DNA from: a virus
Virus record (IMG/VR): IMGVR_UViG_3300033153_003557
Coordinates: 1 to 25,895 of that record
Length of the DNA stretch: 25,895 nt
Direction: 5' to 3' (one strand)
Shown: piece after piece, positions 1 through 22,921 of the stretch
How positions within the stretch are numbered: position 1 is the stretch's first letter
How the letters are laid out: each line of letters begins with the position of its first letter
The notes under the pieces: model-generated
Told to the model about the DNA's origin: nothing
Database searches by the model: none
The model's input: only the letters and a program-made list of their open reading frames with translations
Made by a program: the position numbers and the translations under genes

Positions 1-431
1 TCTTTTTCTGCCTGTGTTAATTCTGGTTGTGGATAGAATTTCAAACCCTTTGTTTCTACTGTAAATTCTATATCGTAATCTTTTGTTTTATCTTTTCGTG
101 GGTCTTCTTTTAAAAGAACTTCAAACTCATAACCACCACTATCCTCTTCAAAACCTTTATCGTAAAAATGACATTCGGTCTTTGCTTTTTTGTATTTAAT
201 CTTATCCTTAACTAACTCTAATACAGGAGTATCTGTTTCTGTATCAATATGCCTGATACTAAAATTACATTCATTACCCCAGCGTTTAATCTTAACTTGA
301 GGCTTGAAGTCTTCTTGCTTTAAATCACCAATTTCAGTTTCAAAATCCTTTTCAAGAGTAATAAAAGTATTCTGTTCAACTTCGTATTTGTCAGTAATAT
401 CTTTTTCTAATTGGTCATTAATTTCTAGCAT
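1..431 (-). CDS. Conserved phage late protein, 5' part only
   Basis: An open frame starts at ATG 431 and runs out of the window with no stop, giving 143 visible residues. The ATG follows directly on the TAG stop of the upstream 923-residue gene (no gap), so translation is probably coupled. The visible part is hydrophilic, begins with an acidic alpha-helical stretch, then has beta-rich sequence including VKIKRWGNECNFSIR (about residues 46-60) and KGLKFYPQPELTQ near the edge. From memory this resembles a hypothetical protein common in environmental phage late regions, but I cannot name a function. Its place at the end of the structural operon suggests a virion or assembly role. The frame is secure; function is unknown. 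Confidence 0.8.
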   Translation of the reverse strand, partial: MLEINDQLEKDITDKYEVEQNTFITLEKDFETEIGDLKQEDFKPQVKIKRWGNECNFSIRHIDTETDTPVLELVKDKIKYKKAKTECHFYDKGFEEDSGGYEFEVLLKEDPRKDKTKDYDIEFTVETKGLKFYPQPELTQAEK

Positions 432-3203
432 CTAACTATAAAATAAATTAATTCCTACTGCACTTGTTGCACAAGGAGTAGTAGCATTATCAGCTATTGC
501 TGAAGTTCCGTAAGCACCTATACCATTTGTAAATCCGATCAAACCTTGACCAAACCATATATTAGCAGCTGCTGAAGCTGGAAGCATAGCCTTAAAGGCT
601 ACAGCATCAGTTCCAACGTTTATTGCTCCTGAGGTATTAGTAAAGTTTATATATTGAGGTATATCTGTTGTGTTATAAGCATAATATCCATAAATAGAAC
701 CTGCTGTAGCTTTGATATTTCCACTAGAGGATAAGTTAGATAAGCGACCTATTATAAGACCACCAATCGTATCTGTGATTATATAAGCTGAGGTTCTAAG
801 TATTGAGGCATCACTCTGAGCGGCTGAAACTACATTTGCGTTAGCTACTAGACTAAAGGTTGAAACTCTTAAATCGCTAGCTTCATCACTCTTTGCTGAA
901 ATATTTAATACTGAAGCATCGTCTTGTACAGCACTAACTGGTTGATCGCCAGCATCGTTCGTAAAGCTTCCACCGCCACTCACTACGTTTACTCTAAAAT
1001 AAGCTGCGTCATCAGACCTTGCACTTACCATAAGATTATTCGCATCTTCTTGTACTGAACTTACTCTATTATTACTAGCATCTCCGTCAAAGGAAGTAGT
1101 TACGCCAAGAGCTGATATACGGCCATAAAACTTATCTATAGAACCATCATCAACTAAGGTAGATGATACTTGCCCAATATGTGCATTTCCTTCTTTTCCT
1201 AAGGCTGAAATAGCCCAAGTACCCGCTTGATTTGCAGAAACAGAACCCATAAAGGCAGTACCCTCTAAGTTACGTGCTGATAATGATTGGTTAGCTGAAA
1301 CACCACCTGAAGAACCAGATACAACATTTATCCTAAACAATGAAGCATCATCTGACTGAACATATAAAGCATTAGTATCATCAACATCATAATCACCCTG
1401 CTGGAGATTAGCATTAACATTAAGATTATCGTGATTAGATTGAAAAGCTGAAATACGAAGTGTATCAGCATCATTACTTTTAGCTGATACTGGTTGGTCA
1501 TCTGCATCATTTGTAAAGCTACCACCACCAGATACAACATTCACTCGGAAGTAAGCTGCATCGTCTGACCTCGCACTTACCATTAATTGACCAGCTGCAG
1601 TCTGATAAGCTTCTACACTATCTGAAATCCAAGTTAAATCTCTTATATCTAAATCCGTAGCTGAAACTGTTACTGTGGCTGGAACTAAAGCTGATACCCT
1701 CATAAGTCCACCATCGTTACTAAAAGCACTTATCCTTAAATCAGATGCCTCGTCAGACTTTGCTGAAACATTATAAGCTGTTTGATCTGATGCTATTACC
1801 ATTCTTTGAGTTCCAGTTCCTACATTTCCAGTACCAGTATTTACTGTCTTATTACCAACTTTTAATAAATTAATATTTGCTGAATTTATATCACTTGTAA
1901 TTGAAGCTGTAATATCTGAGGTTGTTAATATACCACCAGCAAAGACTATCCTATCTACCAATATATTAGCGAGAGTATCTGTTTCAGCATCAAAAGCTAC
2001 ACCAAAAGCCATATAATCAACTGCTGTAGCAACCCAACCATTACCAGTACTACCAGCATAATTAGGTTCTGATATAGCGATTTGTACTGTTTCCCAAATA
2101 CCAGCTGTCCAAGCATCTCCTATACTTATTCTCCATTCATTATAATTAGAACTATCTGTACCAAGTCTAACAAAAAAATAATCACAATCAGTTATATCAG
2201 TAAGATAAACCATTGACTGAATATATCCCAATACCCCAGCAACTTTAAAGAAATTTATTGTTGTGGGTAGAGTTTTTTGAATACCAGCTATCTTAGTATT
2301 AGCAGCGCCATCAACCTTATCAAAACTTAAACTTGCAGTACCAGCTAAATGATTAGAGTTTGTAGCTAGGTTAGTTGTATCATTACCAAGAACTGAAAAA
2401 TCAGCTGTAGCAGTACAAGCATCTACCAAGAATAATGGTTGCATTTTTGTTCTTAAAAATCCACCAACATCTACTGATAAAGAAGAATAATCCCCATCAG
2501 CGCCAGCCACAGGGACACTATAATCATCTGTTTCTTTAACCCCAAGAGCCATTACACCACTATCACCATCAGAATGTGCTGTATCTTCTACATAAGTAAG
2601 ACCTATCGCAGAAACTCTATTTAAAGTTGCATCATCGGATCTTGCTGATACCATTAAATTACCAGCATCAGTATTCTTTGCGCTTATATTTCCAATAAAA
2701 GCTGTTCCTTCTAAATTACGTGCTGACAAAGACTGATTAGCAGATACTCCACCAGATGAACCTGATACCACATTTACCCTAAAGAAAGCAGCATCGTCAC
2801 TACGACAACTAACCATTAAATTAGAGGCATCGTGTTGTTTAGCGCTCACAGTATCTGCATCGGCTGATAAAGGGGTTGTGGTTGCTGTTACACCAAGAGC
2901 AGATACTCTCATAAAAGCAGCATCATCGGAAAATGTTGATACCCTATGAACAGAAGCATCTTCTTGGATTGCTGATACTCTGTTATTAGCTGCATCACCA
3001 TCAAATGATACTGTAGAACCACCCACAGCTGAAACTCTTAAAAGTCCTGCGTCATCTGATTTTAATTGACTATCCCAATTCCACCAGCCACCGCTAGTTT
3101 TATATTGGATACCCCTTGTCATTACAATAGGATCTACTTCCCGATCTGTGTTCCAATTTTGGAGATCGGGGATTGGTATTGGACCATATTTTGGTACTGC
3201 CAT
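432..3203 (-). CDS. Large repetitive fibre-like virion protein
   Basis: A 923-residue protein built in blocks. Residues 1-46 are a unique head. From about 47 to 205 and again from about 440 to 790 it is made of repeats with consensus VSAxSDDAxxLR, mostly 12 residues long with 18-residue variants. Around 207-252 there is a SDGDSGVMALGV...DGDYSSLSVDVGGFL segment of a kind I recall in many phage structural proteins. Residues about 255-425 look like a beta-sandwich, possibly carbohydrate-binding. The last 125 residues (GSIYGYYAYNTT...) resemble a C-terminal domain common on environmental phage virion proteins. The regular beta repeats, Ser/Ala/Asp richness and lack of Cys-rich or catalytic motifs suggest an elongated shaft, for example a tail fibre or capsid fibre. 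Leader is the A/T-type TAAAATATATG. Structural role is likely; the exact virion position is inference. Confidence 0.75.
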   Translation of the reverse strand: MAVPKYGPIPIPDLQNWNTDREVDPIVMTRGIQYKTSGGWWNWDSQLKSDDAGLLRVSAVGGSTVSFDGDAANNRVSAIQEDASVHRVSTFSDDAAFMRVSALGVTATTTPLSADADTVSAKQHDASNLMVSCRSDDAAFFRVNVVSGSSGGVSANQSLSARNLEGTAFIGNISAKNTDAGNLMVSARSDDATLNRVSAIGLTYVEDTAHSDGDSGVMALGVKETDDYSVPVAGADGDYSSLSVDVGGFLRTKMQPLFLVDACTATADFSVLGNDTTNLATNSNHLAGTASLSFDKVDGAANTKIAGIQKTLPTTINFFKVAGVLGYIQSMVYLTDITDCDYFFVRLGTDSSNYNEWRISIGDAWTAGIWETVQIAISEPNYAGSTGNGWVATAVDYMAFGVAFDAETDTLANILVDRIVFAGGILTTSDITASITSDINSANINLLKVGNKTVNTGTGNVGTGTQRMVIASDQTAYNVSAKSDEASDLRISAFSNDGGLMRVSALVPATVTVSATDLDIRDLTWISDSVEAYQTAAGQLMVSARSDDAAYFRVNVVSGGGSFTNDADDQPVSAKSNDADTLRISAFQSNHDNLNVNANLQQGDYDVDDTNALYVQSDDASLFRINVVSGSSGGVSANQSLSARNLEGTAFMGSVSANQAGTWAISALGKEGNAHIGQVSSTLVDDGSIDKFYGRISALGVTTSFDGDASNNRVSSVQEDANNLMVSARSDDAAYFRVNVVSGGGSFTNDAGDQPVSAVQDDASVLNISAKSDEASDLRVSTFSLVANANVVSAAQSDASILRTSAYIITDTIGGLIIGRLSNLSSSGNIKATAGSIYGYYAYNTTDIPQYINFTNTSGAINVGTDAVAFKAMLPASAAANIWFGQGLIGFTNGIGAYGTSAIADNATTPCATSAVGINLFYS

Positions 3204-3208
3204 ATATT

Positions 3209-3658
3209 TTAATTATTTTTTAAATATCTTTTCATAGCATTTCTTGTTCTTTTAGCATTTTTAGCTCTTCCTAAGAAATTAATATATTGAACTATTTTAT
3301 TAAATTTAATTTCATTTCTAGTATTTTCTTCAATACCAAGTAAACCAAACATTTCATTTACTATCTGTTCATAACTTTCCTTTGTATCATTTAAACTTCG
3401 TTCGTTTATCTGAGAAATAATATAATTATCTAAAATATCAACATTTCCCCTTATAGCATCAAAATCATAACCAGTAATATTAAAGTGTTTAACAGTATAA
3501 GGTACTTCATTTAAGTCTTTATAGTGAGAAATTGGTAAATCTATATTACCCTCTCTGGTAGATGTATCAGCACCAGTTGTTTTGTTGGTATCTATTGGTT
3601 TTACTGGTTCTATTGGTTTAGCAAATGGTTGTTCCATATTTTTAAAATAAAAAGCCAT
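3209..3658 (-). CDS. Hypothetical late phage protein
   Basis: A 149-residue protein with no family I recognise. The N-terminal 40 residues are low complexity, rich in Pro, Lys and Thr. The remainder is mixed charged and probably helical (IISQINERSLNDTKESYEQI), ending in a very basic tail, KNAKRTRNAMKRYLKNN. It sits between the glycosyltransferase gene upstream and the large repetitive virion gene 5 bp downstream, in the same operon, so it may be a small virion or assembly protein. A short inverted repeat, CCTCT-A-AGAGG, overlaps its ribosome entry region at 3659-3669. Frame is convincing; function unknown. Confidence 0.65.
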   Translation of the reverse strand: MAFYFKNMEQPFAKPIEPVKPIDTNKTTGADTSTREGNIDLPISHYKDLNEVPYTVKHFNITGYDFDAIRGNVDILDNYIISQINERSLNDTKESYEQIVNEMFGLLGIEENTRNEIKFNKIVQYINFLGRAKNAKRTRNAMKRYLKNN

Positions 3659-3698: not shown

Positions 3699-4823
3699 CT
3701 ATTTTTTAAGTTTCTTCTTAAATTTTTTATTTATATCTTCTAGTGCTTTTACCCAATACTTATAATTACTACTTATATTATATACACTTTTACACTTGTT
3801 ATACAAGGTTAGTGCCAACTTTTCTCTCAGCTCCTTGTTTTTAATAAGCTTTTCCATAGCATTATACCATTCTTCTGGTTCTGTTGCAAATATAACTTCC
3901 TTGTTATTAAAACAATTATATGGTTCTACAGGTGAAGCAATTACAGAATAACGTGCTGAAGCATACTCTAATACCCTTAAATTACTTTTGGCTCGGTTAA
4001 AATCGTTATCACATAAAGGCGCTAAGGCTATATCAAAATTCATCTCTCTATTAGCATAAGCCCAATTTTTTAATTTTGACCAAGGTACTCTATGCACCCT
4101 ATCTTTAATTTCTTTATCTTGAAACAAATCAGCAAATAACCCTGAATAATAGAACGTAGTCTGTGGATAATCTATTAATATTTGAACAATAGCATCTTCA
4201 ATCTGTTTTAAATTCTCCCAATGAGCAGCTGAACCTGACCAACCTATACGTATTTCACCATTTTTCTTGGGAAATATCTTGCTTTTAGAGAAATCTCCGT
4301 CATAAACCTTGTTCCTTTCTTCCCAATCTAAGCTATTAGGGCAAACATAAATATTACTAGGATCGGTATATTTAGAGTAATAATCCTTTAAATTCTGGGT
4401 AGATACTATAAAAGCGTCAAAAACACCTAAAGACTTAATATTCCATACCATATTAGGACTTCCTGGGTGAAAAGAACGATAACCAGGGTTATATGGGCGT
4501 GTAGCTTGAACATTGTCATCTATATCAAGAACAATGGGCTTTTGAAAGAAATCCCTCATACCTCCAGCCTGAGCTATATAGCCAGGTACATCATTCCTAG
4601 AAAAATACATAATGTCAGCATATTTACCACCTTCATTAAGCTTTGCCTCTAGTTTTTCTAATTCTTGATCTTCTTCTACATCTTCTCCCCACGTAAATTT
4701 ATGACAAACAAAGTTTAACGCACCTTGTTTTTTTGCCTCTAATAGCGGTAGGTATTGACGATAATAACCAACCCCACAATCTGCTGCTACTGGTATTCTC
4801 AAGAATACTTTAAGTTTAGCCAT
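3699..4823 (-). CDS. Glycosyltransferase, GT4/GT-B-like
   Basis: A 374-residue protein of the GT-B glycosyltransferase type. The N-terminal half begins LKVFLRIPVAADCGVGYYRQ, matching the pattern where GT4 enzymes start with a strand and a Gly-rich acceptor loop. The C-terminal half has GEIRIGWSGSAAHWENL (about 191-207), a usual start of the nucleotide-sugar domain, then FDIALAPL and KSNLRVLEYASARYSVIASP (about 279-298), the donor-binding segment with the conserved Glu. The tail is Lys-rich. It would transfer a sugar from a nucleotide donor in the cytoplasm. It overlaps the WecB-like gene upstream by 8 bp and is the last gene of the sugar cassette before virion genes resume. Family call is firm; donor and acceptor are unknown. 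Confidence 0.82.
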   Translation of the reverse strand: MAKLKVFLRIPVAADCGVGYYRQYLPLLEAKKQGALNFVCHKFTWGEDVEEDQELEKLEAKLNEGGKYADIMYFSRNDVPGYIAQAGGMRDFFQKPIVLDIDDNVQATRPYNPGYRSFHPGSPNMVWNIKSLGVFDAFIVSTQNLKDYYSKYTDPSNIYVCPNSLDWEERNKVYDGDFSKSKIFPKKNGEIRIGWSGSAAHWENLKQIEDAIVQILIDYPQTTFYYSGLFADLFQDKEIKDRVHRVPWSKLKNWAYANREMNFDIALAPLCDNDFNRAKSNLRVLEYASARYSVIASPVEPYNCFNNKEVIFATEPEEWYNAMEKLIKNKELREKLALTLYNKCKSVYNISSNYKYWVKALEDINKKFKKKLKK

Positions 4824-5796
4824 AATTTTGTAATATTAATTTAATCTTTAATTTAGCTTGTCCATTTCCATATATGGTCTGATCGCCCTTTCCTCTAAAT
4901 GTAGTGTTAAGATGTTCACCTATGGTGTCAGCGTTTACAAGGATATTCCAACCACCAGTTACTGTTTCTGTCCATTCAGTATCATCTCTTAGGGTAAGGC
5001 AAGGTCGTCTAAGAAAGTTAGTTTCTACCTGAATACCACCACTATCAGTAATTATCTTCTCAGCCCAAGCTATCTCCTGTATCATTTTTTTATAGGATAT
5101 TGGCTTATATTTCTTAATAACATCAGGTAATTGAATCTTAAACTCCTTAATCTTAGCTTCTGTACGTGGATGGCAAAAAAACTTAATAGGCATATCTGAT
5201 TGACCCAAAGCCTTAAATATGGCCTGCAATCTCTTCTTATTGTCAGTGTTAAAGTCCCTGTGTAAAGTAAGAACCCTGTATTTATAGAAGTTTTTAGGCT
5301 TTTTAGTAGGAAATGTCTGAAACATTGTATCTAACTGCGTAGCTCCAACCTTATAAACGTTAGTGTGATAATCATTTAATAAACGTTGTTCTGCCTCTTC
5401 TGATGGTGCAAAGTGTAAATCTGCCATTTTGTCAACTAACTTACGTATTCTCTCCTCAATCATAGTATCATTGCCACTACGACAACCTGCCTCTATGTGT
5501 ATAATCTTAACACCCTCGTAGAGCGCTGAAATAGCCCCTGCTAACGTTGAACGACAATCTCCATAGAGAATGACATAATCAGGCTTCTCCTTCCTTAGAA
5601 CACCCTGTAGAGCCTCAATCATACCCCCAAGCTCTGTTTCTCCTAGATCGTAATCAGGCTTCTTTATCTTTAGACCACTAAAAAATATATCCTTCATATT
5701 CTTGTCATAATGCTGTCCAGTCCAAACTAAAGGCTCTCCTAAATCTATATATTTAATTATCTGTGGTTTTGTTCCGATTATTGTTAAATACTTCAT
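4816..5796 (-). CDS. WecB-like UDP-N-acetylglucosamine 2-epimerase
   Basis: A 326-residue member of the non-hydrolysing UDP-GlcNAc 2-epimerase family, which interconverts UDP-GlcNAc and UDP-ManNAc (or C2 epimers of related amino sugars). Visible family motifs: YGDCRSTLAGA (78-88), HIEAGCRSG (100-108), MIEERIRKLVDKMAD (112-126) with the Glu/Arg of the active site, LTLHRDFN with the conserved His near 179, and TDSGGIQVET (250-259) followed by LRDDTEW. It is about 40 residues shorter than typical cellular WecB (about 370), mainly at the N terminus, but keeps the catalytic blocks. It overlaps the upstream fusion gene by 4 bp (ATGA) and the downstream glycosyltransferase by 8 bp, so the three are translationally coupled. 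It probably supplies a sugar donor for the neighbouring transferases. Confidence 0.88.
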   Translation of the reverse strand: MKYLTIIGTKPQIIKYIDLGEPLVWTGQHYDKNMKDIFFSGLKIKKPDYDLGETELGGMIEALQGVLRKEKPDYVILYGDCRSTLAGAISALYEGVKIIHIEAGCRSGNDTMIEERIRKLVDKMADLHFAPSEEAEQRLLNDYHTNVYKVGATQLDTMFQTFPTKKPKNFYKYRVLTLHRDFNTDNKKRLQAIFKALGQSDMPIKFFCHPRTEAKIKEFKIQLPDVIKKYKPISYKKMIQEIAWAEKIITDSGGIQVETNFLRRPCLTLRDDTEWTETVTGGWNILVNADTIGEHLNTTFRGKGDQTIYGNGQAKLKIKLILQNYG

Positions 5797-7991
5797 AGTT
5801 TTACTACATATAAAGCCCTGTTATTGCTCATAGGTATTACTTCTTCAACCTCAAAATAGTCCATATAGTCGTGAACCCAAGTATATTTGACATTAAAGAT
5901 GAAATCTGTGTCTTTCTGCTTTTGAATGATCTTAGGGTGGATAGTTCTACCCTTACCTTCAACAGGAGCTTCTTTAATGGGTTCAATAAGAACAGCACGT
6001 TTAGCAATCTTCTTTAAGGCCTCTACTGTTTGTTTCATCTCCTTAGGTGGAATATGGAGCAAAGTAGCAAAAGTAAAAGCTAAATCATACTTAGTTTCTA
6101 CTGTTTCAGCAAAACTATCAATACTACCTACCTCAAAGTCTTTCTCTGGGTGCTTTTCCTTAGCTTGATCTATGAGTTTCTGCATAAAATCAACTCCCCT
6201 ATAAGGTACATCTGGAAGAATATCGCACCAACGACCTGTTCCACAACCAATATCTATTATGTTTTCGGGTTTTAGCTCCTTAATCTTCTTTACTGCTTTG
6301 AACATATCGTCTGCTTCAATCTGTCCATTCTCTACATCTCCCCATAAATCAGACATTTGTTTCCACCAATCCTCTATATCTACATCTAATAGCTTATAGA
6401 TATTATCTTTAAACTTTTCTACGTTACAAACATCTCTATAATGGGTAGCGCCATCTTCATTAATCCCTAAATCTTTGACGCTTTTAATGGTTTCTAGGAG
6501 ATTAACTTCATTCTTCTTGACAACACTAGCCAATTGTTTCTTAGTTGGTGCTTTCTCACCAACATACTGTTCTACTTTAAAGTTTACAGCATAAGGTATG
6601 TCTATTGTGGTGATAGCGTTGCGACCAGCTGTAATCCACTCTACTACTGATAGAGGAAGTCCATCGTGAGGTGTTAAGCGTAAAATACAAGAAGTCTTAA
6701 CAATAAGCTCTTTTAGTTCTTCTTCGTTTAGTATCCCCCAATTATGTATATTATCCTTATGTCCTACTAAGGTGGGATCACCAAAGAAATGCCAATCTAT
6801 ATCTTTGTGTTTGTCTGCAAACTCCCTAATAAAATTAGAGAAGTAAAACTCTTTATTCACATAAGGATCATAAATAGCAATACTAAACTTCTTAGGTAGT
6901 GATAGGTTCTCTTGTCCTAATATCTTAGGCGGGAACGGAACGATACGAGCCTTAATACCCATTTCAGCTAGTTCTTTTTGAGTTGCTTCCATTTCGCATA
7001 AATGAACATCAACATTATTATCTATCCAGTCTAGGGTTTGTGTTCTTAATTTCTCCTCAGCATTCTTAACACCTAATATATCAGAGCCTATCCAATGTAC
7101 CACTCTTAACGCCCTAGTATTCCATAAGGATTGATCTACATTGCCAAAGAAACCAACGATATAAATCATTTCATAGTTATGTGGTTTAAAAGAAGGGAGT
7201 GGTAAATAATCAGCCCCTAGATACTTAGCTACATTCTTAGCGTGAAAAGCAGCCCCCTGACCTGTAACACAAATCTGTTTCTGTGTAATACCATATTTGT
7301 TTTTAATAAAGTTAAGACGTTCTACCCAATTCCTATTACTATCATCTGAAAGTCCGCCAGGATGAGGCATAGTTGTTTCAAAGAATACCTGTTTAGAATA
7401 GAAGCCTTTAGCTCCGTGGTTCTTTACAGCGTTAATCCAGAAATCCCAATCTTGTAAGGATTTAACTTTCGGATCCCAACCACCCATCTTATCAAACAAT
7501 TCCTTAGTAAGTGGATAAGAGCCATCAATATAGTTAGTTACCTCTAAGAAGTAAGGATCAAAGTCTTCAGCAAGATAAGACATAACTTCGTGTCCTTTCT
7601 CATCTACAAACTTATAACCTCCATATAGAAAGTCGTGGTCAGGGTGTCTTTCAAGGCCTTCAACCCATATACGAGCTACACCAGGATATAACTTAGCGTC
7701 AGCAGGTAGAAATGAGAGATATTTACCTTTAGCGTGTTCAGCGCCAAGATTACGAGCCGTACAAGCTCCTTCATTCTTTTTTAGGTATATAACCTGTAAT
7801 CGGTCATATTTATTGTCTAACTTATCCAGAATTTCTTTAGAGTTGTCAGTAGAACCATCATCAACAATAATCTGTTCAATGTTTGGATAGTCTTGCTCCA
7901 TTATAGAATCTACCATTGCCTCAATAGTATTACCATCATTATAATTTGGTGTAATAAACGATATTAAAGGTTGTTCTTTCTTTTTATACAT
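5793..7991 (-). CDS. Fusion of GT2, GT4-like and SAM methyltransferase
   Basis: A 732-residue, three-domain protein. Residues about 8-225 are a GT2 (GT-A) glycosyltransferase: PLISFITPNYNDG, VDDGSTDNS (43-51), NEGACTARNLGAEHAKG (73-89), LPADA in the DXD position (95-99), and DWDFW (181-185). Residues about 270-535 look like a GT-B transferase: WIGSDILG, then DGLPLSVVEWITAGRNAITT with Glu451 in the donor site. Residues about 545-732 are a class I SAM methyltransferase with IIDIGCGTGRW (578-588) and FATLLHIPP. One chain could thus add two sugars and methylate the product, perhaps capping a glycan. It is followed with a 4-bp overlap by the epimerase gene. Domain calls are strong; order of reactions and acceptor are inference. 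Confidence 0.88.
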   Translation of the reverse strand: MYKKKEQPLISFITPNYNDGNTIEAMVDSIMEQDYPNIEQIIVDDGSTDNSKEILDKLDNKYDRLQVIYLKKNEGACTARNLGAEHAKGKYLSFLPADAKLYPGVARIWVEGLERHPDHDFLYGGYKFVDEKGHEVMSYLAEDFDPYFLEVTNYIDGSYPLTKELFDKMGGWDPKVKSLQDWDFWINAVKNHGAKGFYSKQVFFETTMPHPGGLSDDSNRNWVERLNFIKNKYGITQKQICVTGQGAAFHAKNVAKYLGADYLPLPSFKPHNYEMIYIVGFFGNVDQSLWNTRALRVVHWIGSDILGVKNAEEKLRTQTLDWIDNNVDVHLCEMEATQKELAEMGIKARIVPFPPKILGQENLSLPKKFSIAIYDPYVNKEFYFSNFIREFADKHKDIDWHFFGDPTLVGHKDNIHNWGILNEEELKELIVKTSCILRLTPHDGLPLSVVEWITAGRNAITTIDIPYAVNFKVEQYVGEKAPTKKQLASVVKKNEVNLLETIKSVKDLGINEDGATHYRDVCNVEKFKDNIYKLLDVDIEDWWKQMSDLWGDVENGQIEADDMFKAVKKIKELKPENIIDIGCGTGRWCDILPDVPYRGVDFMQKLIDQAKEKHPEKDFEVGSIDSFAETVETKYDLAFTFATLLHIPPKEMKQTVEALKKIAKRAVLIEPIKEAPVEGKGRTIHPKIIQKQKDTDFIFNVKYTWVHDYMDYFEVEEVIPMSNNRALYVVKL

Positions 7992-7992
7992 A

Positions 7993-8172
7993 TTATTTAT
8001 CTAATTTATTAAACAATCTTTTCTGCCACGATAATTTACTAATTCTTTTTCTTTCTTTCATAATTTCACTAACTATATTATTAATTAACTCCCTTTTATC
8101 ATTATTAAAAGCAAAAATACCCTCCCAATCATAGTATAAACTAAATCTTATTTTATTTCTTTGACTATTCAT
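7993..8172 (-). CDS. Small basic hypothetical protein
   Basis: A 59-residue protein starting at ATG 8172, one base after the stop of the acyltransferase gene. An upstream in-frame start exists at 8292 but lies deep inside the acyltransferase gene and would add a 40-residue stretch that is only its shadow, so the short form is preferred. It begins MNSQRNKIRFSLYYDWEG and ends in a basic helix, KERKRISKLSWQKRLFNKLDK. No family recognised. It is packed between two sugar genes with 1-bp gaps, so it is probably translated, and may be an accessory factor of the cassette. Confidence 0.5.
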   Translation of the reverse strand: MNSQRNKIRFSLYYDWEGIFAFNNDKRELINNIVSEIMKERKRISKLSWQKRLFNKLDK

Positions 8173-8173
8173 A

Positions 8174-8695
8174 TTATTGTCTTTTTTTACTAATGTAGTA
8201 CTGTTCGTACGAAACGACAAAAGCCTGACCAGTAACATCACTAACAAGAATACCAGCAGGATTACCAACCACAGTAACTCCAGGTGGTACATTCTTAGTT
8301 ATTACAGCGCCTGCTCCTATCTGAGCATTTTCCCCTATCTCTACACCACATAGAATAGTAGCGTTAGCACCGATAGTAGCACCACTATGGACTAAGGTTG
8401 TATTATAGGCAGAAGTAGCAATAGATTGATTAGCCCTTGGTTTACGTACATTTATAAAGGTAGCACTAGGACCAACAAAGACGTTATCTTCTAGCTTTAC
8501 ACCACTATATAAGGATACGTTGTTTTGTATCCTACAGTTATCGCCTATCTCTACAAAGTCCTGAATAAAGCAATTCTGTCCTATAGAGCAGTTTTTACCA
8601 ATTTCAACTCTAGGCATTATATGTGACCAACGCCAAACACAAGTATTCTCTCCTATTTCTGCTCCCGTTTCCACGTCTGCGAGTTTATGTATCAT
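8174..8695 (-). CDS. Hexapeptide-repeat acyltransferase (WbpD/WlbB-like)
   Basis: A 173-residue left-handed beta-helix acyltransferase. Hexapeptide repeats of the form [IV]GxNxx run through the protein: AEIGENTCVW, VEIGKNCSIGQNCFI, VEIGDNCRIQNNV, VKLEDNVFVGPSATF, then GATIGANATILCGVEIGENAQIGAGAVITKNVP and VGNPAG near the C terminus. This is the layout of WbpD/WlbB enzymes, which acetylate the 3-amino group of UDP-linked amino sugars using acetyl-CoA. A short insertion (INVRKPRANQ) matches the loop position where these enzymes bind their substrate. It lies in the sugar cassette with a second acyltransferase of the same fold at 9848-10249. The family is clear; the exact sugar is not. Confidence 0.85.
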   Translation of the reverse strand: MIHKLADVETGAEIGENTCVWRWSHIMPRVEIGKNCSIGQNCFIQDFVEIGDNCRIQNNVSLYSGVKLEDNVFVGPSATFINVRKPRANQSIATSAYNTTLVHSGATIGANATILCGVEIGENAQIGAGAVITKNVPPGVTVVGNPAGILVSDVTGQAFVVSYEQYYISKKRQ

Positions 8696-8696
8696 A

Positions 8697-8846
8697 TTAT
8701 TTCATTACTAAATACATTGTTAAGGTATTTAAAATTATTAAGGTTATTGTCATTTTACCTGCTTGTAAGAAGTTTCCTGTAAAGGCATAGGTAACTATTA
8801 TGGCATTGACAAATAAAAGAACTCTAAGCGTTAGGAACTTTTTCAT
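8697..8846 (-). CDS. Small two-helix membrane protein, DUF2061-like
   Basis: A 49-residue ORF from ATG 8846 to TAA 8697 that fills an otherwise empty gap. It overlaps the end of the upstream epimerase gene by 23 bp and ends one base before the next start. The sequence has two hydrophobic helices: LTLRVLLFVNAIIVTYAFTG and, after NFLQAGK, MTITLIILNTLTMYLVM. The arrangement (basic start, R-x-x-x-F, TG between helices, N-T before the end) resembles DUF2061, a short membrane domain, but it lacks the usual C-terminal ER-W motif. Function is not known. A membrane protein inside a cytoplasmic sugar-synthesis cassette could tether the pathway or be unrelated. Confidence 0.6.
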   Translation of the reverse strand: MKKFLTLRVLLFVNAIIVTYAFTGNFLQAGKMTITLIILNTLTMYLVMK

Positions 8847-9789
8847 CTCTTTCTTTTAATTCTTCTACTTTCTTATCCATTATTTCATCAAAAAACATAT
8901 CTTTCATACCAGCTTCAAAAGTCCACTTAGGTTCATAGTTAAGCATCATCTGAGCCTTGCTAATATCAAATACGAATCTCTGTGGATCTACTTCTCTAGC
9001 TTTCACCTTCTCTACGCCACTCTTCCAACCAGTAACTTTACAGACAATCTTTCCAGCATCTTCTGCAGTAAGCTCCTCACCTGTACCAATGTTATAAATT
9101 TGATTCCAACTATCCCAACCAGCTAATAAGGCAAGAACGTTAGATTGAGCTATGTCAGGAATATAACAGAAGTCGTTGCTCTGATCGCCACCATACAACA
9201 TAGGCTTTAGTCCTCTCTGTATTCTAGCCCAATATCCACCAATAAGCCCGTGTCCTCTCTTCTCTTTTCCATAGATATGAGAATATCTAAGGATAATATG
9301 AGGATTTACCTCTTCCACAAAGCTTTCGCCTATTAATTTAGAACAAGCGTATTGTGAGTTACCCATTACCTTAAAATCCTCAGTAATAGGTGGTGTTTGA
9401 ACAATAGGCATATAAACTGAACCAGTAGAAGCGTACACTAGGGGTATATGGTACATTTTGCATACATTAGCCACATTACTTGTACCTACGTGATTAGTTT
9501 CAAAGGTTAGTCTAGGGTTCTTATCTGCCTCAGCAAAACGAGCAATAGCAGCTAAATGAAGTACCCTATGTGGTTTGTGTTCTTCTACAAACTTCTGTAA
9601 TTGTTTAAAATCCCTAATATCATTACCTTCTAAAAGATCGTAGCCTATCACTTGATGGCCTAACTCCTCTAATTGTTTAACAGTTTCCTGTCCTACAAAG
9701 CCTAGATGTCCTGTGATCATAATCCTTCTAGGGAGAGGAAACTCTAACTTAATTGTAGTAATAGGTACTGGTGTTGATGTAGAATTCAT
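8824..9789 (-). CDS. NAD-dependent nucleotide-sugar epimerase/dehydratase
   Basis: A 321-residue extended short-chain dehydrogenase. The Rossmann loop is GHLGFVG (27-33), the catalytic Tyr-Lys pair lies in QYACSKLIGE (Tyr147, Lys151), and YASTGSVY (119-126) carries the conserved Thr/Ser. NADP/NAD-binding and HLAAIARFAEADKNP follow the usual UDP-galactose 4-epimerase/GDP-mannose dehydratase pattern. ATG 9789 is chosen over ATG 9828 because it is preceded by TAAATATAAAATT, the leader type of many genes here, and because the extra residues are not family-like. It would act on a nucleotide-linked hexose in the cytoplasm, as part of the sugar cassette. Exact specificity (4-epimerase, 4,6-dehydratase or reductase) cannot be read by eye. 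Confidence 0.85.
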   Translation of the reverse strand: MNSTSTPVPITTIKLEFPLPRRIMITGHLGFVGQETVKQLEELGHQVIGYDLLEGNDIRDFKQLQKFVEEHKPHRVLHLAAIARFAEADKNPRLTFETNHVGTSNVANVCKMYHIPLVYASTGSVYMPIVQTPPITEDFKVMGNSQYACSKLIGESFVEEVNPHIILRYSHIYGKEKRGHGLIGGYWARIQRGLKPMLYGGDQSNDFCYIPDIAQSNVLALLAGWDSWNQIYNIGTGEELTAEDAGKIVCKVTGWKSGVEKVKAREVDPQRFVFDISKAQMMLNYEPKWTFEAGMKDMFFDEIMDKKVEELKERDEKVPNA

Positions 9790-9847
9790 AATTTTATATT
9801 TATCGTTTATTAGTAAATAGTGGGGCATTTTTGGCTGCCCCTGGCCA

Positions 9848-10249
9848 TTAGAAAAATACCATCTCCTTCCGATTAATGACTATAACTCCAGCAGGAACAT
9901 CTTTAAATACAGTTGTACCAGCACCGATCATAGCGCCCTTACCTATAGTAACGCCACACAGTATTACACAACCTGCGCCTATAGAAACGTCATCCTCTAC
10001 AATGGTTTTTTCCCAATCCTCTTTACCTCTTGGGGGTTTAGCATCGTTAGTAAATACGACAGAAGGGCCGAGAAACACATTTTTTCCCAGTTCCACACCT
10101 TCAGGCAAGAAGCAAAAGGCTTGTATTTTACAGCCATCACCTATTCTAACGTCTTTACCAATCCAAATTGGTGCGTGCAAGGTACAGTTATCAGCTATAG
10201 CACAATCTAAAATGACTGATTTTTCAGGATGCCAGATTTTTGTTTTCAT
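9848..10249 (-). CDS. Hexapeptide acyltransferase, sugar N-acetyltransferase
   Basis: A 133-residue left-handed beta-helix acyltransferase, shorter than the neighbouring one at 8174. Hexapeptide units include IWIGKDVRIGDGCKIQ, VELGKNVFLGPSVVFTND, and VSIGAGCVILCGVTIGKGAMIGAGTTVFKDVPAG. The KPPRGKEDWEKTIVED loop (about 72-87) fits the substrate loop of WbpD/FdtC-type amino-sugar acetyltransferases. Its ATG overlaps the TGA of the aminotransferase gene upstream (ATGA), which is the order expected for a PLP aminotransferase that makes an amino sugar and an acetyltransferase that caps it. Specificity is inferred from that pairing only. Confidence 0.85.
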   Translation of the reverse strand: MKTKIWHPEKSVILDCAIADNCTLHAPIWIGKDVRIGDGCKIQAFCFLPEGVELGKNVFLGPSVVFTNDAKPPRGKEDWEKTIVEDDVSIGAGCVILCGVTIGKGAMIGAGTTVFKDVPAGVIVINRKEMVFF

Positions 10250-11289
10250 TTCTCTTTCCTTTTTATGAGCAATTTTGTTTTTATTATATTATCGCAAATA
10301 TATTTAATATCAGTATCTTTAAGTTCGGGATATAATGGTAAACTAACAAGCCTTTCCCCAAGATATTCAGTTTTCTCTAGGTTATTACTTAAACATCCCT
10401 TAAATGCTGTCATTTTATGTAAAGGTAGGAAGTGAACTGAACATTGAATACCCCTATCAGCCATAATTTGCATAAAAACATTCCTTTCTTCTACTAAAAT
10501 AGGGTATAGATGTATTCCTGTATTCTTTAAGCCTAATAATTCATTGTATTTCTCTACACATCGCTGTCTTTCTATGTGTATTTCTACATATTTATCAAAA
10601 TTAGCTAATAATATAGCGCTTAATATATCACTTGGGTTGCACTTCCAACCCATAAATTCTATATCATACTGCCAATTATTCCCTTCATAACGTTTCCAAC
10701 CATCTTTAGATATGCCGTGATGCCTAGCCTTTTTAAACCATTCAGCAGCTTCATCATTATTAGTGCAGATACAACCGCCCTCTCCCATAGTTAGGTTCTT
10801 AGTGGCATAAAAAGAGTAACAAAAAAAGTGATCTGAATCCTTGCACATATCTTTTTTCATAAGATGAGCGCAATCTTCAACCACGGGTCTATTATGATAA
10901 TTTGTTATAGCTTCTACACCGCATAAATGAACAGGTATAGCTACATCAAATGGTAGTTCTGAATTAGTATCTAAACACATCTTGTCATCTACATCACCCC
11001 ATAAAATAGTACCTCCAGCGTGATATATAGCCTCAGCGGTAGCAGCAAAGGTTAGGGATGGACAATATCCAACAAAACTCTTCCCTTTAAATAGATACTC
11101 TAAAGATAGGTGTAAAGCAGCTGTACAAGAACTCAACATAATACAATGTTTTGCTCCAGTAAAGTCAGCTATCTTCTCTTCTAACTTTTCAGTAACTTTG
11201 CCAGTTGTTATCCAACCAGCCTCAATTGTCTTTTTAACCTCATCTAGCTCTTCTTCGCCTAGATAGGGTTTGCAAAATCGTATTGCCAT
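10246..11289 (-). CDS. DegT/DnrJ/EryC1/StrS sugar aminotransferase
   Basis: A 347-residue PLP-dependent aminotransferase that would convert a keto nucleotide sugar to an amino sugar. Family marks: KPYLGEEELDEVKKTIEAGWITTG at the N terminus (7-30), LSSCTAALHLSL (52-63) for phosphate binding, PVVEDCAH with Asp139 for the PLP ring nitrogen, and SFYATKNLTMGEGG (159-172) with Lys164 as the Schiff-base lysine. A usual member is about 360-390 residues, so it is near full length. It lies 12 bp after the SDR gene and overlaps the acetyltransferase, giving the order dehydratase, aminotransferase, acetyltransferase seen in bacillosamine-, QuiNAc- and Fuc3NAc-type pathways. The family call is firm. Confidence 0.9.
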   Translation of the reverse strand: MAIRFCKPYLGEEELDEVKKTIEAGWITTGKVTEKLEEKIADFTGAKHCIMLSSCTAALHLSLEYLFKGKSFVGYCPSLTFAATAEAIYHAGGTILWGDVDDKMCLDTNSELPFDVAIPVHLCGVEAITNYHNRPVVEDCAHLMKKDMCKDSDHFFCYSFYATKNLTMGEGGCICTNNDEAAEWFKKARHHGISKDGWKRYEGNNWQYDIEFMGWKCNPSDILSAILLANFDKYVEIHIERQRCVEKYNELLGLKNTGIHLYPILVEERNVFMQIMADRGIQCSVHFLPLHKMTAFKGCLSNNLEKTEYLGERLVSLPLYPELKDTDIKYICDNIIKTKLLIKRKEK

Positions 11290-11301
11290 ATTTATCGTTT
11301 T

Positions 11302-12042
11302 TTATTGTCTTTCACTCGTATAATTATGATTAAAGCTTTCAAAAAGCTTCTCCCCCTCTCTTAAACCTATAATCTCAAATGGCCAATTAGGATCAATTGA
11401 ATCAGCTATCTCTTGTACTGTCATTGTTTTTAAATTTGGTGGGTAATAAATACCACTCTCTACATCAGATAGTAAATAATCACATACCTCATCTAATCTA
11501 ATAACAAATCTTGTGGCATAAGGTACTGTAATAGTAAATGGTTTACCAGCCTTTTTTTGTTTCTTAAATACTTCCCAAACACTACCCCTAGAGCCTATAA
11601 AGTTACCAAATCGCCAGACTATTCCCCCTCCTGCGAGTGTAATACTCTCAGCAATCATTTTTGAAGCACCATATATGCAACTAGGTTGAAATGCTTTGTC
11701 AGTAGAAACCATTATTACTTTTTTGCCTCTACCAGCTATCATTACATTCCTTGTGCCAGTTATATTAACATCAGCCACGGTGAACGTGTTATGTGACGTT
11801 GTGTCCATACGTTTCATAGCAGCCGTATGAATAATAACATCAACACCTTCGCAAGCCTCTTTTAAACGTTCTAAATCCCTAATGTCACCCAACCAATAGG
11901 ATATATTAGGATTATTCTCTCTTGCCATTTCAGATTGTTTGTATTCATCTCTTGAATATACTCTTACTTCGTGTTTTTTTGCTAATCGTTTTGTAAGGGC
12001 TTGGCCTAAAGTACCAGTAGCCCCAGTAATTAGATAAATCAT
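11302..12042 (-). CDS. PseB/CapD-like nucleotide-sugar 4,6-dehydratase
   Basis: A 246-residue SDR enzyme. It opens with LITGATGTLGQAL (4-16), has SRDEYKQSEM (30-39), the cofactor/substrate motif used by PseB/FlaA1/CapD proteins, then GDIRDLERL, IHTAAMKRMD (71-80), VSTDKAFQP (112-120), YGASKMIAE (124-132) and near the end IIGLREGEKLFES. These features point to an inverting or retaining UDP-GlcNAc 4,6-dehydratase, first step to many amino sugars. It is about 80 residues shorter than PseB and may lack part of the C-terminal substrate domain. It begins the sugar cassette; its ATG shares one base with the stop of the small zinc protein upstream (TAATG). UDP-GlcNAc as substrate is inference. Confidence 0.82.
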   Translation of the reverse strand: MIYLITGATGTLGQALTKRLAKKHEVRVYSRDEYKQSEMARENNPNISYWLGDIRDLERLKEACEGVDVIIHTAAMKRMDTTSHNTFTVADVNITGTRNVMIAGRGKKVIMVSTDKAFQPSCIYGASKMIAESITLAGGGIVWRFGNFIGSRGSVWEVFKKQKKAGKPFTITVPYATRFVIRLDEVCDYLLSDVESGIYYPPNLKTMTVQEIADSIDPNWPFEIIGLREGEKLFESFNHNYTSERQ

Positions 12043-12191
12043 TATTGATAGTTAGTTTCACAGGCTAAACAACAAAAACCAACACCATCATTAGTCCTAT
12101 AAGTTACAGGAGATGCCATACAACCAGCACATAATGTTTGTGGTTCTACTATGGTCTTCTCTGTTTTAACTACCTTTTTCTTTTTTGCCAT
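12042..12191 (-). CDS. Small zinc-ribbon protein after the capsid gene
   Basis: A 49-residue ORF from ATG 12191 to TAA 12042, coupled to the SDR gene through a TAATG overlap. It starts with a basic run (AKKKKVVKTEK) and has two cysteine pairs, LCAGCMAS and FCCLACE, spaced as a zinc ribbon. No specific family recognised. It lies just after the major capsid gene and its downstream hairpin, at the border between structural and sugar genes, and could be a small regulatory or virion protein. Confidence 0.6.
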   Translation of the reverse strand: MAKKKKVVKTEKTIVEPQTLCAGCMASPVTYRTNDGVGFCCLACETNYQ

Positions 12192-12253: not shown

Positions 12254-13336
12254 TTAATAAGCTGTAGGATACTTGTATCGTGTGACACTTCCAGTAGCGG
12301 ATTCGTCAGCAACAACAGTTGTGTCGCCAGAACCAGCCCAGAACCATACACCACAAGAGGCGTTAAGCACTTTACTAATAAAGTTAGCTTTCCAACCATA
12401 AGTGGTTAACTGATTCAATGGATCGCCTTTTTCTGCGCCTTGAGCGATGAAGGTTTTAATACCACCATCTAACTCAGTAACACCGAAATAGCCTTTACCC
12501 ATTACTAGAGTACCATAGACAACAGCAGAAGCAGTTGATAATGAATCTCCAACACCACGAACAGCAGGACCTTGAGTGGTTTCTACGAAACGACAGCCAT
12601 AAATCTTACCAATTTCACCTGTATATAGGTTAGCTTGGCCAGGGGCAGCGTATTGATGGAAGTTAATCCAAGTAGAATCACTCACTAAGTCTTCAGCGGT
12701 TTCAGTATTAATGATGGATACAAAGTCGTTACCCTCGTAAGGTTTAACATTTAATCCTTTCAAACGATAGACACAAGATCTTACATTTGAAACAGATAAA
12801 ACATTATTATAACAACCAGTAGCACCAAGAACTGAACCGTAAATACCATTAGCGCAAGTAGAGATACCAGAAACAGATTCAAAGTAATCACCAATTGTAG
12901 CGGAGTTCTTTACATAATGAATACCAGCACCTGCATTGTAGGTAGCTAATTCACAAGTAATAACACGCTCAATAGTTTCACCAGCCTGTGCGCCTATGCG
13001 TTCAGCAGCCATCTTCATTACGTCAGTAATAGAAGTTAGGTCAACTAAGTCAGAAATTGATGTGTAACCACCAAATTGTCTGATAATAGCTGATACCTTA
13101 GCTGTTGATAAAGCGTTTGCTGTAGAAGTAGTAACACCCTCACTTAGAACGAAACCAGTCGCAAGACGAGTAGATCTGTTCCAAATAATAGTCTTACCTT
13201 CACCCTTAGGCAAAGGTCGCTTTTCACCAAACTGATAATACTTTAATTCTGGATCTAATACGTCTAACATTACTCTGTCGTAAAAACTCTTAATAGTATT
13301 TGTCAACGACGTAGTGTTTGATGTAGATGAAGCCAT
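12254..13336 (-). CDS. Major capsid protein, N4-gp56 family
   Basis: A 360-residue HK97-fold major capsid protein of the N4-gp56 type. Recognisable features: an N-terminal SFYDRVMLDVLDPELKYYQFGEKRPLPKGEGKTIIWNRSTRLA (about 18-60), followed by the LSEGVTTSTANALSTAKVSAIIRQFGGYTSISDLVDLTS segment (69-107) that is characteristic of this family, then ERIGAQAGETIERVITCELAT and a C-terminal VYGTLVMGKGYFGVTELDGGIKTFI. It follows the scaffold gene in the standard order portal, scaffold, capsid. The 74-bp leader holds two copies of AAACGAGT, 14-15 bp apart, and is unusually long for this compact operon, which may mean extra regulation for a highly made product. Family call is strong. Confidence 0.9.
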   Translation of the reverse strand: MASSTSNTTSLTNTIKSFYDRVMLDVLDPELKYYQFGEKRPLPKGEGKTIIWNRSTRLATGFVLSEGVTTSTANALSTAKVSAIIRQFGGYTSISDLVDLTSITDVMKMAAERIGAQAGETIERVITCELATYNAGAGIHYVKNSATIGDYFESVSGISTCANGIYGSVLGATGCYNNVLSVSNVRSCVYRLKGLNVKPYEGNDFVSIINTETAEDLVSDSTWINFHQYAAPGQANLYTGEIGKIYGCRFVETTQGPAVRGVGDSLSTASAVVYGTLVMGKGYFGVTELDGGIKTFIAQGAEKGDPLNQLTTYGWKANFISKVLNASCGVWFWAGSGDTTVVADESATGSVTRYKYPTAY

Positions 13337-15878: not shown

Positions 15879-17099
15879 TTACCAGCCTGTACGGCTATTA
15901 CGAGGTTTGTAAGCTTTTTTAACGCTCGTTTGTCTTGGTCTGTAACTATCTAAGCCATATCTTATTGCATCCATAGGGTTAGACCACTCGTGTATTGTAT
16001 CATCAGGCTTATTAGATATAAAGTTTCCCACCTTATCTTTAGCCCATATATAATTACGATATGCTTTTATTGTTTTTAAACTTCTTTTAGTAACGCTTAT
16101 CCTTTGATCTTGAACAAACTGTATTCCCATATTAACACTACCCTGGCCTTTAATAGCGCCAATTATATTAACTCCATAGTTTCTTATCTCATCTATACTC
16201 TTTGGTTCAGCACTATCAGCTATGGTTAATATTCTTTGCTTTTCGTTCTGACCAAGAAAATCAGCTATACCTTTATTACTCAACTCTTTCTGATAAAGAA
16301 CCTCATCTATAATAAATCCATCATTATATTTGTAAATATCTACTACTACAGTAGGATCAATACTATATCCAAAATCTATTCCTCTTCTCTCCAACCTAGC
16401 TTCGTGTGGTATCTCATCTGTTATCTTCCAATCTTTATATATCCTACCCTCTAAAACACCAAGTAATCCAAGTCCATACACTCTCCACCAATTTTTATTA
16501 TGTTTATGACTTTCAATCTCTTTCTTACTAATCTCATCTAAAGCTTCATTGTGTAAATAAGTAAGTGGACCCAAATAATTCTCTCCTAAAAAATCAATAT
16601 CATCTCTATTAGGAAGCATCTCAGTATAGAACCAAAATTCTTCACTAGGATTCCAATCCATCCATACTATCTTTCTAGTTCTTGTAACTAACTGATCTAC
16701 AATGGGATATGGTAAATTATTAGCCTCATTAAGAAATAATATATCTCTTCTGGGGCCGTGAGCTTTTCCAAATTTGTCAAATGAAATAAACTCTATAAAC
16801 GTGCCTGTAGAAAATGTATAAATGTGCTTTGACTCATTCCACCTATCACTCTCCCAGTATCCGTGAGCCAACATTATATTTTTAAAATCTCTTATTGCGC
16901 CTAACTGTAAATGTGGGAAACTTTCTGCTACTACTGTCATTACTTCATTATTTGTACTCTGTGCGTAATCTATTAACCAAACTAAAATTGATATTGTTTT
17001 ACTTGCGCTTGTTCCACCACTAACAGCTCTAATTCTTTTCTTCAGGTTGAATATCTTTTTTGTCGCTATCGTGTTCTTGAATTTCATCTTCTTTAACAC
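15879..17099 (-). CDS. terL: Terminase large subunit (TerL)
   Basis: A 406-residue packaging motor. The ATPase half has a Walker A-like VSGGTSASKTIS (26-37), RRDILFLNEANNLP (117-130) as Walker B with the catalytic Glu, and VWMDWNPSEEFW (145-156) as the coupling region. The nuclease half has RRGIDFGYSIDPT with Asp242, TIADSAEPKSIDEIR with Asp295 and NPMDAIRYGLDSY with Asp377, the three acidic residues of the RNase H-like fold. The start at 17099 lies inside terS, giving a 71-bp overlap; a second ATG 12 bp later is possible. It acts with TerS and portal to pack DNA into proheads. All key motifs are present. Confidence 0.95.
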   Translation of the reverse strand: MLKKMKFKNTIATKKIFNLKKRIRAVSGGTSASKTISILVWLIDYAQSTNNEVMTVVAESFPHLQLGAIRDFKNIMLAHGYWESDRWNESKHIYTFSTGTFIEFISFDKFGKAHGPRRDILFLNEANNLPYPIVDQLVTRTRKIVWMDWNPSEEFWFYTEMLPNRDDIDFLGENYLGPLTYLHNEALDEISKKEIESHKHNKNWWRVYGLGLLGVLEGRIYKDWKITDEIPHEARLERRGIDFGYSIDPTVVVDIYKYNDGFIIDEVLYQKELSNKGIADFLGQNEKQRILTIADSAEPKSIDEIRNYGVNIIGAIKGQGSVNMGIQFVQDQRISVTKRSLKTIKAYRNYIWAKDKVGNFISNKPDDTIHEWSNPMDAIRYGLDSYRPRQTSVKKAYKPRNSRTGW

Positions 17100-22369: not shown

Positions 22370-22921
22370 ATGAAGAAAATTACAAAAGACATAGTCCTAA
22401 ACAATTTAGAGGAATGTAAAAAGTATGTTCAAGAAATTGAGCAAGAAGGAATAAAAGAAGAAAAAGTAGTTGGTATAGCTATTAAGAATAGATTTACTGG
22501 TGAGATTATTTTTCAAAGCACAAAGACTACTTATAAAGAAGCAATAAAAGAAAAGGGTGATGCTGACCTGTGTGATGCTGACCTCCGTGGTGCTGACCTG
22601 TGTGATGCTGACCTCCGTGGTGCTGACCTCCGTGATGCTAACCTCCGTGATGCTAACCTCCGTGGTGCTGACCTCCGTGATGCTAACCTCCGTGGTGCTG
22701 ACCTGTGTGATGCTGACCTCCGTGGTGCTGACCTGTGTGATGCTGACCTGTGTGGTGCTGACCTGTGTGATGCTAACCTGTGTGATGCTGACCTCCGTGA
22801 TGCTAACCTGTGTGATGCTGAATTAATGAACGCCAAGTTTTATGGTAAAGGTGGAACTAAAGTAATCCTTAAAAAGGACTTAGATAACTTTTTACAAGCT
22901 TTAGGGTTTGTTGTGGAATAA
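22370..22921 (+). CDS. Pentapeptide-repeat protein
   Basis: A 183-residue protein. Residues 1-63 are a head that includes VGIAIKNRFTGEIIFQSTKT, of a kind I recall ahead of pentapeptide repeats in phages. Residues 64-148 are 17 perfect A(D/N)LXX pentapeptides (units such as DADLC, DADLR, GADLR, DANLR), which should form a right-handed quadrilateral beta-helix about four coils long. The final 35 residues (AELMNAKFYGKGGTKVI) lead out. Such proteins can mimic DNA and inhibit gyrase or act as interaction rods. Repeat codons are GC-richer than the surroundings. It lies one base before the 3D-domain gene. Fold is certain; function is not. Confidence 0.85.
   Translation: MKKITKDIVLNNLEECKKYVQEIEQEGIKEEKVVGIAIKNRFTGEIIFQSTKTTYKEAIKEKGDADLCDADLRGADLCDADLRGADLRDANLRDANLRGADLRDANLRGADLCDADLRGADLCDADLCGADLCDANLCDADLRDANLCDAELMNAKFYGKGGTKVILKKDLDNFLQALGFVVE
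22559..22813 (+). repeat. 17 tandem 15-bp units coding pentapeptides
   Basis: Each 15-bp unit reads as D/G-A-D/N-L-C/R. All variation is at three places: GAT or GGT, GAC or AAC, and CTGTGT or CTCCGT, the last always changing as a linked pair. Every other base is invariant over the whole array, so it has been homogenised recently by slippage or unequal recombination. G units always carry D, never N, at the third residue. Confidence 0.9.

Follow-up and report, generated by a model that had tools for sequence, protein, structure and literature searches.

A putative glycan-building module behind the capsid gene in a lineage of uncultured tailed phages

The window analyzed here comes from an uncultured phage and covers positions 1-25895 of a linear record of 42,295 bases (IMG/VR record IMGVR_UViG_3300033153_003557). 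It carries on its minus strand a cassette (3699-12042) that extends from the major capsid gene to a gene for a 149-residue protein and consists of eight intact sugar genes and two mini-genes. This cassette is a lineage trait of the clade defined by the capsid protein, and it is probably the phage's own glycan module, with a virion protein as the likely acceptor. An earlier reading of the DNA letters (the original prediction) had proposed that sugar genes were inserted in the virion operon. The location was correct, but the arrangement, with its gene order at the capsid gene, is shared across the lineage and so is not a one-off insertion. A chance junction between host and prophage DNA, named with that prediction as a finding that would refute it, was rejected because this gene order is conserved in a deep phage clade.

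About 100 relatives, all of them metagenomic contigs, were gathered from IMG/VR by scans with capsid proteins and with a tri-domain transferase of the cassette; a capsid alignment spanning all groups was too divergent for use as a scan query. The association was tested in a manner that avoids the bias of the transferase search, using loci in the ranges obtained from capsid-protein scans and with at least 4 kb downstream. The cassette was present in 30 of 30 loci of the lineage (capsid profile score >195) and in 0 of 28 loci of the neighboring lineage, which score below that value (P 3e-17), a probability that is not to be taken literally because the threshold was set after the gap in scores had been seen and the profile was seeded from cassette-bearing phages. 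The same picture emerged from a capsid tree of 84 rows (IQ-TREE), in which a locus was scored positive if the capsid gene is followed by sugar or transferase genes of the module. The clade that includes the window has 53 members, with 46 positives, seven unscored loci whose contigs end, and no negatives, and the other side of the tree contains 27 negatives and three positives of uncertain place (L093, L094, and L097). Two state changes suffice to account for this distribution, compared with about 23-27 under shuffled labels, although some positives (such as L012, L037, and L154) come from contigs that stop early and are scored solely on one sugar gene immediately following the capsid gene.

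Enzyme families in the window were assigned from profile matches (Pfam and NCBIfam), PHROG, and the best sequence matches in the PDB, and the profile searches confirmed, with matches far above chance, the families that had been named before (Epimerase_2, DegT, Polysacc_synt_2, Epimerase, Glycos_transf_2, Hexapep, and Glyco_trans_1_2). The cassette is headed by a 246-residue short-chain dehydrogenase/reductase (SDR; 11302-12042, minus strand, as are all cassette genes) that resembles UDP-N-acetylhexosamine 4,6-dehydratases of the PseB/FlaA1 type (Polysacc_synt_2 1.6e-51; FlaA1, PDB 2gn4, 7.8e-44). Its match to PseB (7.5e-56, 189 bits) is under the equivalog cut-off of 408 and it is ~80 residues shorter than the PseB model, and its STDK and YGASK motifs are present. 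Next comes a DegT/DnrJ/EryC1 pyridoxal phosphate (PLP) aminotransferase that is ArnB/PseC-like (10246-11289; PF01041 5.4e-58; ArnB, PDB 1mdo) and whose PLP lysine, K164, is invariant across the relatives in an alignment. It scores 170 bits against PseC (equivalog cut-off 424), and the DegT profile of the clade is nearest to ArnB (1.5e-70, 241 bits), with WbpE more distant (3e-42, 148 bits). The front half also encodes a hexapeptide-repeat sugar acetyltransferase, hexB (9848-10249; the L015 gene is 80% identical), and an NAD-dependent SDR of the GalE/RmlB superfamily that is epimerase/dehydratase-like (8824-9828; PF01370 5.1e-36; UDP-glucose 4-epimerase, PDB 4zrm, 1.6e-26).

Further downstream are hexA, an N-acetyltransferase of the WbpD/WlbB type that is kept in the relatives (8174-8695; PDB 3mqg, a lipopolysaccharide biosynthesis acetyltransferase, 7.3e-42), and a non-hydrolyzing, WbpI-like UDP-sugar 2-epimerase (4816-5796; Epimerase_2 1.8e-73). 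The Hexapep matches of the two acetyltransferases, hexA and hexB, are 1.8e-29 and 1.7e-21. The best PDB match of the 2-epimerase is the Thermus thermophilus UDP-GlcNAc3NAcA (UDP-2,3-diacetamido-glucuronate) 2-epimerase (8sxv, 5.1e-59, 203 bits; next family 165), and its YGD motif is kept, with D80 corresponding to the aspartate of YGDT in 8sxv. The first three activities of the window (dehydratase, aminotransferase, and acetyltransferase) might work at C4, whereas hexA and the 2-epimerase resemble enzymes for C2/C3. The cassette is without WbpA and WbpB, and neither was seen among the other genes of the record that were scanned. The WbpB-like 3-dehydrogenase and 6-dehydrogenase-like genes of the relatives are likewise absent from it, and no sialic-acid-like synthase or CMP-transferase was seen. 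Because these two dehydrogenase-like genes are missing and C4-type enzymes are mixed with C2/C3-type enzymes, the window's sugar cannot be named, and the complete nucleotide-sugar route of the original prediction was not borne out.

The cassette encodes two glycosyltransferase (GT) proteins. The larger, GT2-MT (5793-7991; Glycos_transf_2 5.5e-30; Methyltransf_25 1.5e-9), has 732 residues and three domains: a GT2 domain (about residues 1-235, 7287-7991, from Pfam), a GT-B/GT4-like domain (about residues 236-478, 6558-7286; its homologue in L058 matches Glyco_trans_1_4 at 3.8e-6), and a methyltransferase domain (about residues 556-732, 5796-6326, from Pfam). The other, GT374 (3699-4823), is a GT4-like transferase of 374 residues with a GT-B assignment (Glyco_trans_1_2 5.5e-6; phrog_7162 glycosyltransferase 6.7e-33). 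The earlier count of three transferase domains on two proteins thus stands, with one methyltransferase domain to be added. An AlphaFold model of GT2-MT over all 732 residues, built with 26 homologues, has a predicted local distance difference test score (pLDDT) of 91.1 and a predicted template modeling score of 0.87; with four sequences the pLDDT was 41. The acidic residue D98 of the GT2 domain is invariant in the 26 homologues, and a stretch of the middle domain, HDGLP...E...AGR, is mostly so. Loss of key residues, which the original prediction had named as a reason to abandon it, was not found: the two SDR motifs, K164, D80, and D98 are all kept. When the GT2-MT model was compared with the PDB by Foldseek, clear naming was obtained for the GT2 domain only, and a comparison with viral models placed giant-virus GT and GT-methyltransferase proteins among the best matches, with low TM-scores. 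Hydropathy analysis found no membrane segment in any transferase (maxima of 0.83 and 1.01 for the two GT proteins), and all of the cassette's transferases are predicted to be soluble. In addition, the cassette contains no flippase (GtrA/GtrC-like), polymerase, or polyprenyl-phosphate (lipid-carrier) sugar transferase.

The open reading frames (ORFs) of the original prediction are present where it placed them, on one strand and tightly spaced, but its list omitted two genes for 49-residue products. One, with a CxxC...CxxC pattern evident in the sequence and only a sub-threshold zinc-finger match, lies between the capsid gene and the cassette (12042-12191) and shares 1 bp with the start of the SDR gene. 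The other (8697-8846) encodes a DUF2061 membrane peptide (PF09834 1.7e-6, above the curated cut-off; KD19 maximum 2.0), the only strongly hydrophobic product in the hydropathy analysis of the cassette. In the front half, the SDR and DegT genes are 12 bp apart, DegT and hexB overlap by 4 bp, hexB and the NAD-dependent SDR are 19 bp apart, and the latter overlaps by 23 bp with the DUF2061 gene, whose presence accounts for this overlap. In the back half, 1 bp separates DUF2061 from hexA and 182 bp separate hexA from GT2-MT, which overlaps the 2-epimerase gene by 4 bp; the latter overlaps GT374 by 8 bp, and the next gene follows GT374 after 40 bp. hexA is also overlapped by a 99-residue ORF (7993-8292), the upstream part of which is unlikely to be a real gene. 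Shine-Dalgarno motifs are almost absent from gene starts on both strands of the window, and A/T-rich leaders precede the starts.

Comparison with the relatives separates a conserved back end of the module, hexA/GT2-MT/2-epimerase/GT374, from a front end that is exchanged. Cassette content and order are the same in L003/L015, whose capsid protein is 86% identical to that of the window, and the same slot is filled in L005, L007/L016, L018, L019, L024, and others. There, the slot begins with an SDR with an SSEVYG motif, sometimes a short UDP-sugar-dehydrogenase-like gene, DegT, and a Gfo/Idh/MocA dehydrogenase. These are followed by hexA and the tri-domain transferase, in many cases additional GT2 genes, and then the 2-epimerase and GT374, after which many of these relatives have the homologue of the 149-residue gene and a fibre gene. 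Among PDB matches of the relatives' Gfo/Idh profile, WbpB ranks first (3oa2, 1.9e-58, against 2.2e-26 for the next other family), and for this reason the front end, hexA, and 2-epimerase of most relatives look Wbp-like. Most relatives have WbpB-, WbpD-, and WbpI-like enzymes, and the window and L015 have the PseB-like SDR plus another SDR. The conserved core of the module consists of the transferases, the 2-epimerase, and the aminotransferase, and frames are intact and key residues conserved in relatives down to ~40% identity. In a more distant group (L054, L056, L058, L060, and L076-L086), the capsid gene is immediately followed by a GT2/GT-B gene, which starts 60-100 bp past the capsid stop in L054, L056, L060, and L076-L078, and then by a second GT2 gene and GT374; several members have an aminotransferase or SDR gene upstream instead. 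In L062 (12842-14890) it is GT374, and not the GT2 protein, that carries a fused methyltransferase, and a similarly long GT374 is found in L059 and L061, so the methylation step is seemingly kept while its fusion partner changes. As a separate observation, the homologue of the 149-residue gene and the fibre gene of L030 (8091-9393) lie within the cassette, where they follow the first SDR or precede it on the way to the dehydrogenase-like gene, the two genes that flank them.

Since the lineage keeps its sugar set right behind the capsid gene, the particles are most likely coated with a self-built sugar chain. Capsid protein, sugar donors, and transferases would be made together from one late operon. 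Starting from host UDP-GlcNAc or a close precursor, the front-end enzymes would form at least one amino or acetamido sugar, the amino sugars would be acetylated, and the 2-epimerase would complete at least one donor. GT374 could then join with both GT domains of the tri-domain protein in assembling a short chain in the cytoplasm, which the fused methyltransferase probably caps. The acceptor would be a virion protein, namely the neighboring capsid protein or one from the tail or fibre, such that particles would leave the cell with a phage-determined glycan. In this scheme we infer not only the activities and the order of steps but also which sugar is made, which protein accepts it, and whether it serves shielding, adsorption, or stability. 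Several observations weigh against this proposal. In L028 (5606-6555), L096 (6581-7508), and L099 (5539-6074), a fibre-like gene comes right after the capsid gene before the contigs end, and the module may have been lost or displaced in this sub-branch. The Ser/Thr or Asn content of capsid proteins shows no difference between lineages with and without the cassette, the DUF2061 peptide hints at a membrane step, position in an operon is by itself no proof of a virion target, and the clade is known from metagenomic contigs.

The original prediction had left the target as either virion proteins or the host envelope. The latter would involve late modification of the host surface (O-antigen, capsule, or S-layer), which would block superinfection or free progeny from receptors. 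It would fit enzyme families that are common to O-antigen pathways (Wbp, Pse, and Fnl), the occurrence of GT2 and 2-epimerase genes in other phages, and the membrane peptide. However, soluble transferases and the absence of any polyprenyl-phosphate or flippase component favor attachment to virion proteins over O-antigen conversion. In addition, the cassette sits with capsid and tail genes rather than as a moron, and its adjacency to the capsid gene is kept over deep divergence. Host-surface modification is therefore unlikely, and virion proteins are the better option. A mixed target, in which one chain is attached both to virion proteins and to a glycoprotein or S-layer of the host, or host transferases draw on the sugars, might explain the large enzyme set and the extra GT2 genes of many relatives, but nothing points directly to two acceptors and we give it only a slight chance. 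Phage GTs are known to glycosylate DNA (noted in PMC12619734), and those of the cassette might act on modified bases of the phage genome. Yet no Pfam base-modification enzyme was found among 20 other proteins of the window and record that were scanned, in which small ORFs were partly covered, and the cassette is linked to capsid genes rather than to those for replication. We also know of no DNA role for a dedicated 2-epimerase with a diacetamido-type sugar route, and such hypermodification is very improbable. Least probable is that a host polysaccharide block is carried as a passenger without selected function, as although the front end varies between relatives, the module is retained clade-wide in the same order around the capsid gene with the intact frames and conserved residues described above.

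Virion glycosylation by phage GTs is already known, but few systems with glycosylated phage particles have been described. In mycobacteriophages, capsid and tail-tube proteins are glycosylated by phage-encoded GTs (Freeman 2023, cited in PMC11256854 and PMC12619734), and the window resembles them in encoding intact GTs of its own. It differs in that the citing accounts mention GTs and no cassette with its own nucleotide-sugar synthesis, and in that the GTs of Maravista lie near the 3′ genome end and not beside the capsid gene. Close in architecture is A064R of the chlorovirus PBCV-1, in which two GT domains and one methyltransferase build the end of the capsid N-glycan, with a methyl group as the cap (PMC9614988). 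Both viruses supply their own glycosylation machinery, and in both, a GT-A domain, a second GT, and a C-terminal methyltransferase are united in one soluble viral protein, a likeness that for the window is one of architecture only. Unlike A064R, however, the window protein has a GT2 domain rather than the D1 type and a GT4-like middle domain, and it belongs to a tailed prokaryotic virus with the genes within the virion operon. No A064R structure (1LL2) appeared within the 60 best-ranked of 103 PDB sequences matched by the GT2-MT profile, and A064R is best regarded as a functional analogue rather than a demonstrated homologue.

The Wbp pathway to UDP-ManNAc3NAcA is known from Pseudomonas aeruginosa and T. 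thermophilus (PMC10622841). The window resembles it in hexA (WbpD/WlbB) and in the 2-epimerase (most like WbpI), by similarity and not activity, and the relatives alone add a clear WbpB and a 6-dehydrogenase-like gene, which is short. The window differs in being without WbpA and WbpB and in being headed by an SDR dehydratase, and in window and relatives alike, the aminotransferase scores closer to the ArnB/PseC type than to WbpE. The window's order of dehydratase, DegT aminotransferase, and acetyltransferase recalls the Pse/Leg/bacillosamine pathways, but its scores are far under the PseB and PseC equivalog cut-offs. With the Gtr serotype-conversion systems it shares a GT2 domain, but it is without the GtrA flippase, the membrane-anchored GtrB, and the polytopic Gtr transferase. 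In the literature, which was incompletely covered, no description was found of a phage nucleotide-sugar cassette beside a capsid gene. As far as we have found, three features appear to be new: the coupling to the capsid gene throughout a lineage, an amino-sugar synthesis that is carried on board and can be swapped, and a GT-GT-methyltransferase in tailed phages.

The chances are about even that these contigs represent a deep and widespread lineage of uncultured tailed phages with built-in, capsid-linked glycosylation, their own diacetamido-sugar synthesis, and a GT-GT-methyltransferase, in which the glycan is ancestral and the sugar has been changed by swapping the front end. If so, it would be a prokaryotic-virus counterpart of the autonomous capsid glycosylation of giant viruses, and glycan type would be an evolving virion surface trait, as in chloroviruses, that bears on adsorption, recognition, and particle stability. 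In the accounts of glycosylated phage particles that were consulted, sugar supply is not described as a trait of the virion operon. The soluble, phage-encoded GT-GT-methyltransferases are also possible tools.

The window has a replication gene of the Lin1244 type, a NinG-like gene, and, ahead of the early genes, a single sigma-70-like site (11/12), which together favor a bacterial host, but promoter-like sites overall are at chance (57 found, 58.9 expected). Shine-Dalgarno motifs are also absent in several close relatives and are used by more distant members of the clade, so that hosts probably differ within it. A nanoarchaeotal host, suggested by a single genome match through L046 (JAGLZG010000245.1), was not accepted, as L046 is also of viral origin, the metagenome-assembled genome that contains it is fragmented, and its placement there is possibly a binning error.

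The late block on the minus strand runs from a putative small terminase through large terminase, portal, and a scaffold-like gene to the major capsid protein and the cassette, and continues with the 149-residue gene, a repetitive fibre-like protein, and more virion genes; an SU10-type adaptor protein is encoded on the same strand in the remainder of the record. The major capsid protein, a candidate glycan acceptor, is of the N4-gp56 family (12254-13336, minus strand; TIGR04387 1.3e-43; phrog_1357 major head protein 4.5e-47) and is the upstream neighbor of the cassette, as originally predicted. The fibre-like gene (432-3203, minus strand), which had been taken as the other neighbor, is an indirect one, separated from the cassette by the 149-residue gene (3209-3658, minus strand), whose homologue follows the cassette in relatives. 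The fibre-like protein has 923 residues and no Pfam or PHROG family above threshold, its homologue comes after the cassette in L015 and L020-L023, and it is full of short imperfect repeats with RVSA and SDDAA motifs. GC content is steady across both cassette edges and terminator-like sites in the region are not beyond chance (4 found, 6.3 expected), which agrees with, but does not prove, co-transcription of the cassette and virion genes. The phage collection contained no near-identical DNA to the window.

Some minor features of these contigs were also noted. Both ends of the record lie inside minus-strand genes (window 3-431 and L002:14616-16496), and when they were compared through an L015 gene as one joined gene, the match was weak (E 0.07). 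The large terminases of the window (15879-17099) and L007 (800-2167) have no similarity recognizable by BLASTP and the adjoining portals are 52% identical, which suggests terminase exchange between the window and L007 groups within an otherwise conserved head block. The capsid genes of L023 (2578-4294) and L049 (6446-7792) are each split into two fragments separated by a gap, which in L023 holds a 166-residue ORF; such a pattern would result from an intron or homing element. Finally, a pentapeptide-repeat protein (PF00805) is encoded on the early strand of the window (22370-22921), where the repetitive coding stretch opens long ORFs in other frames.

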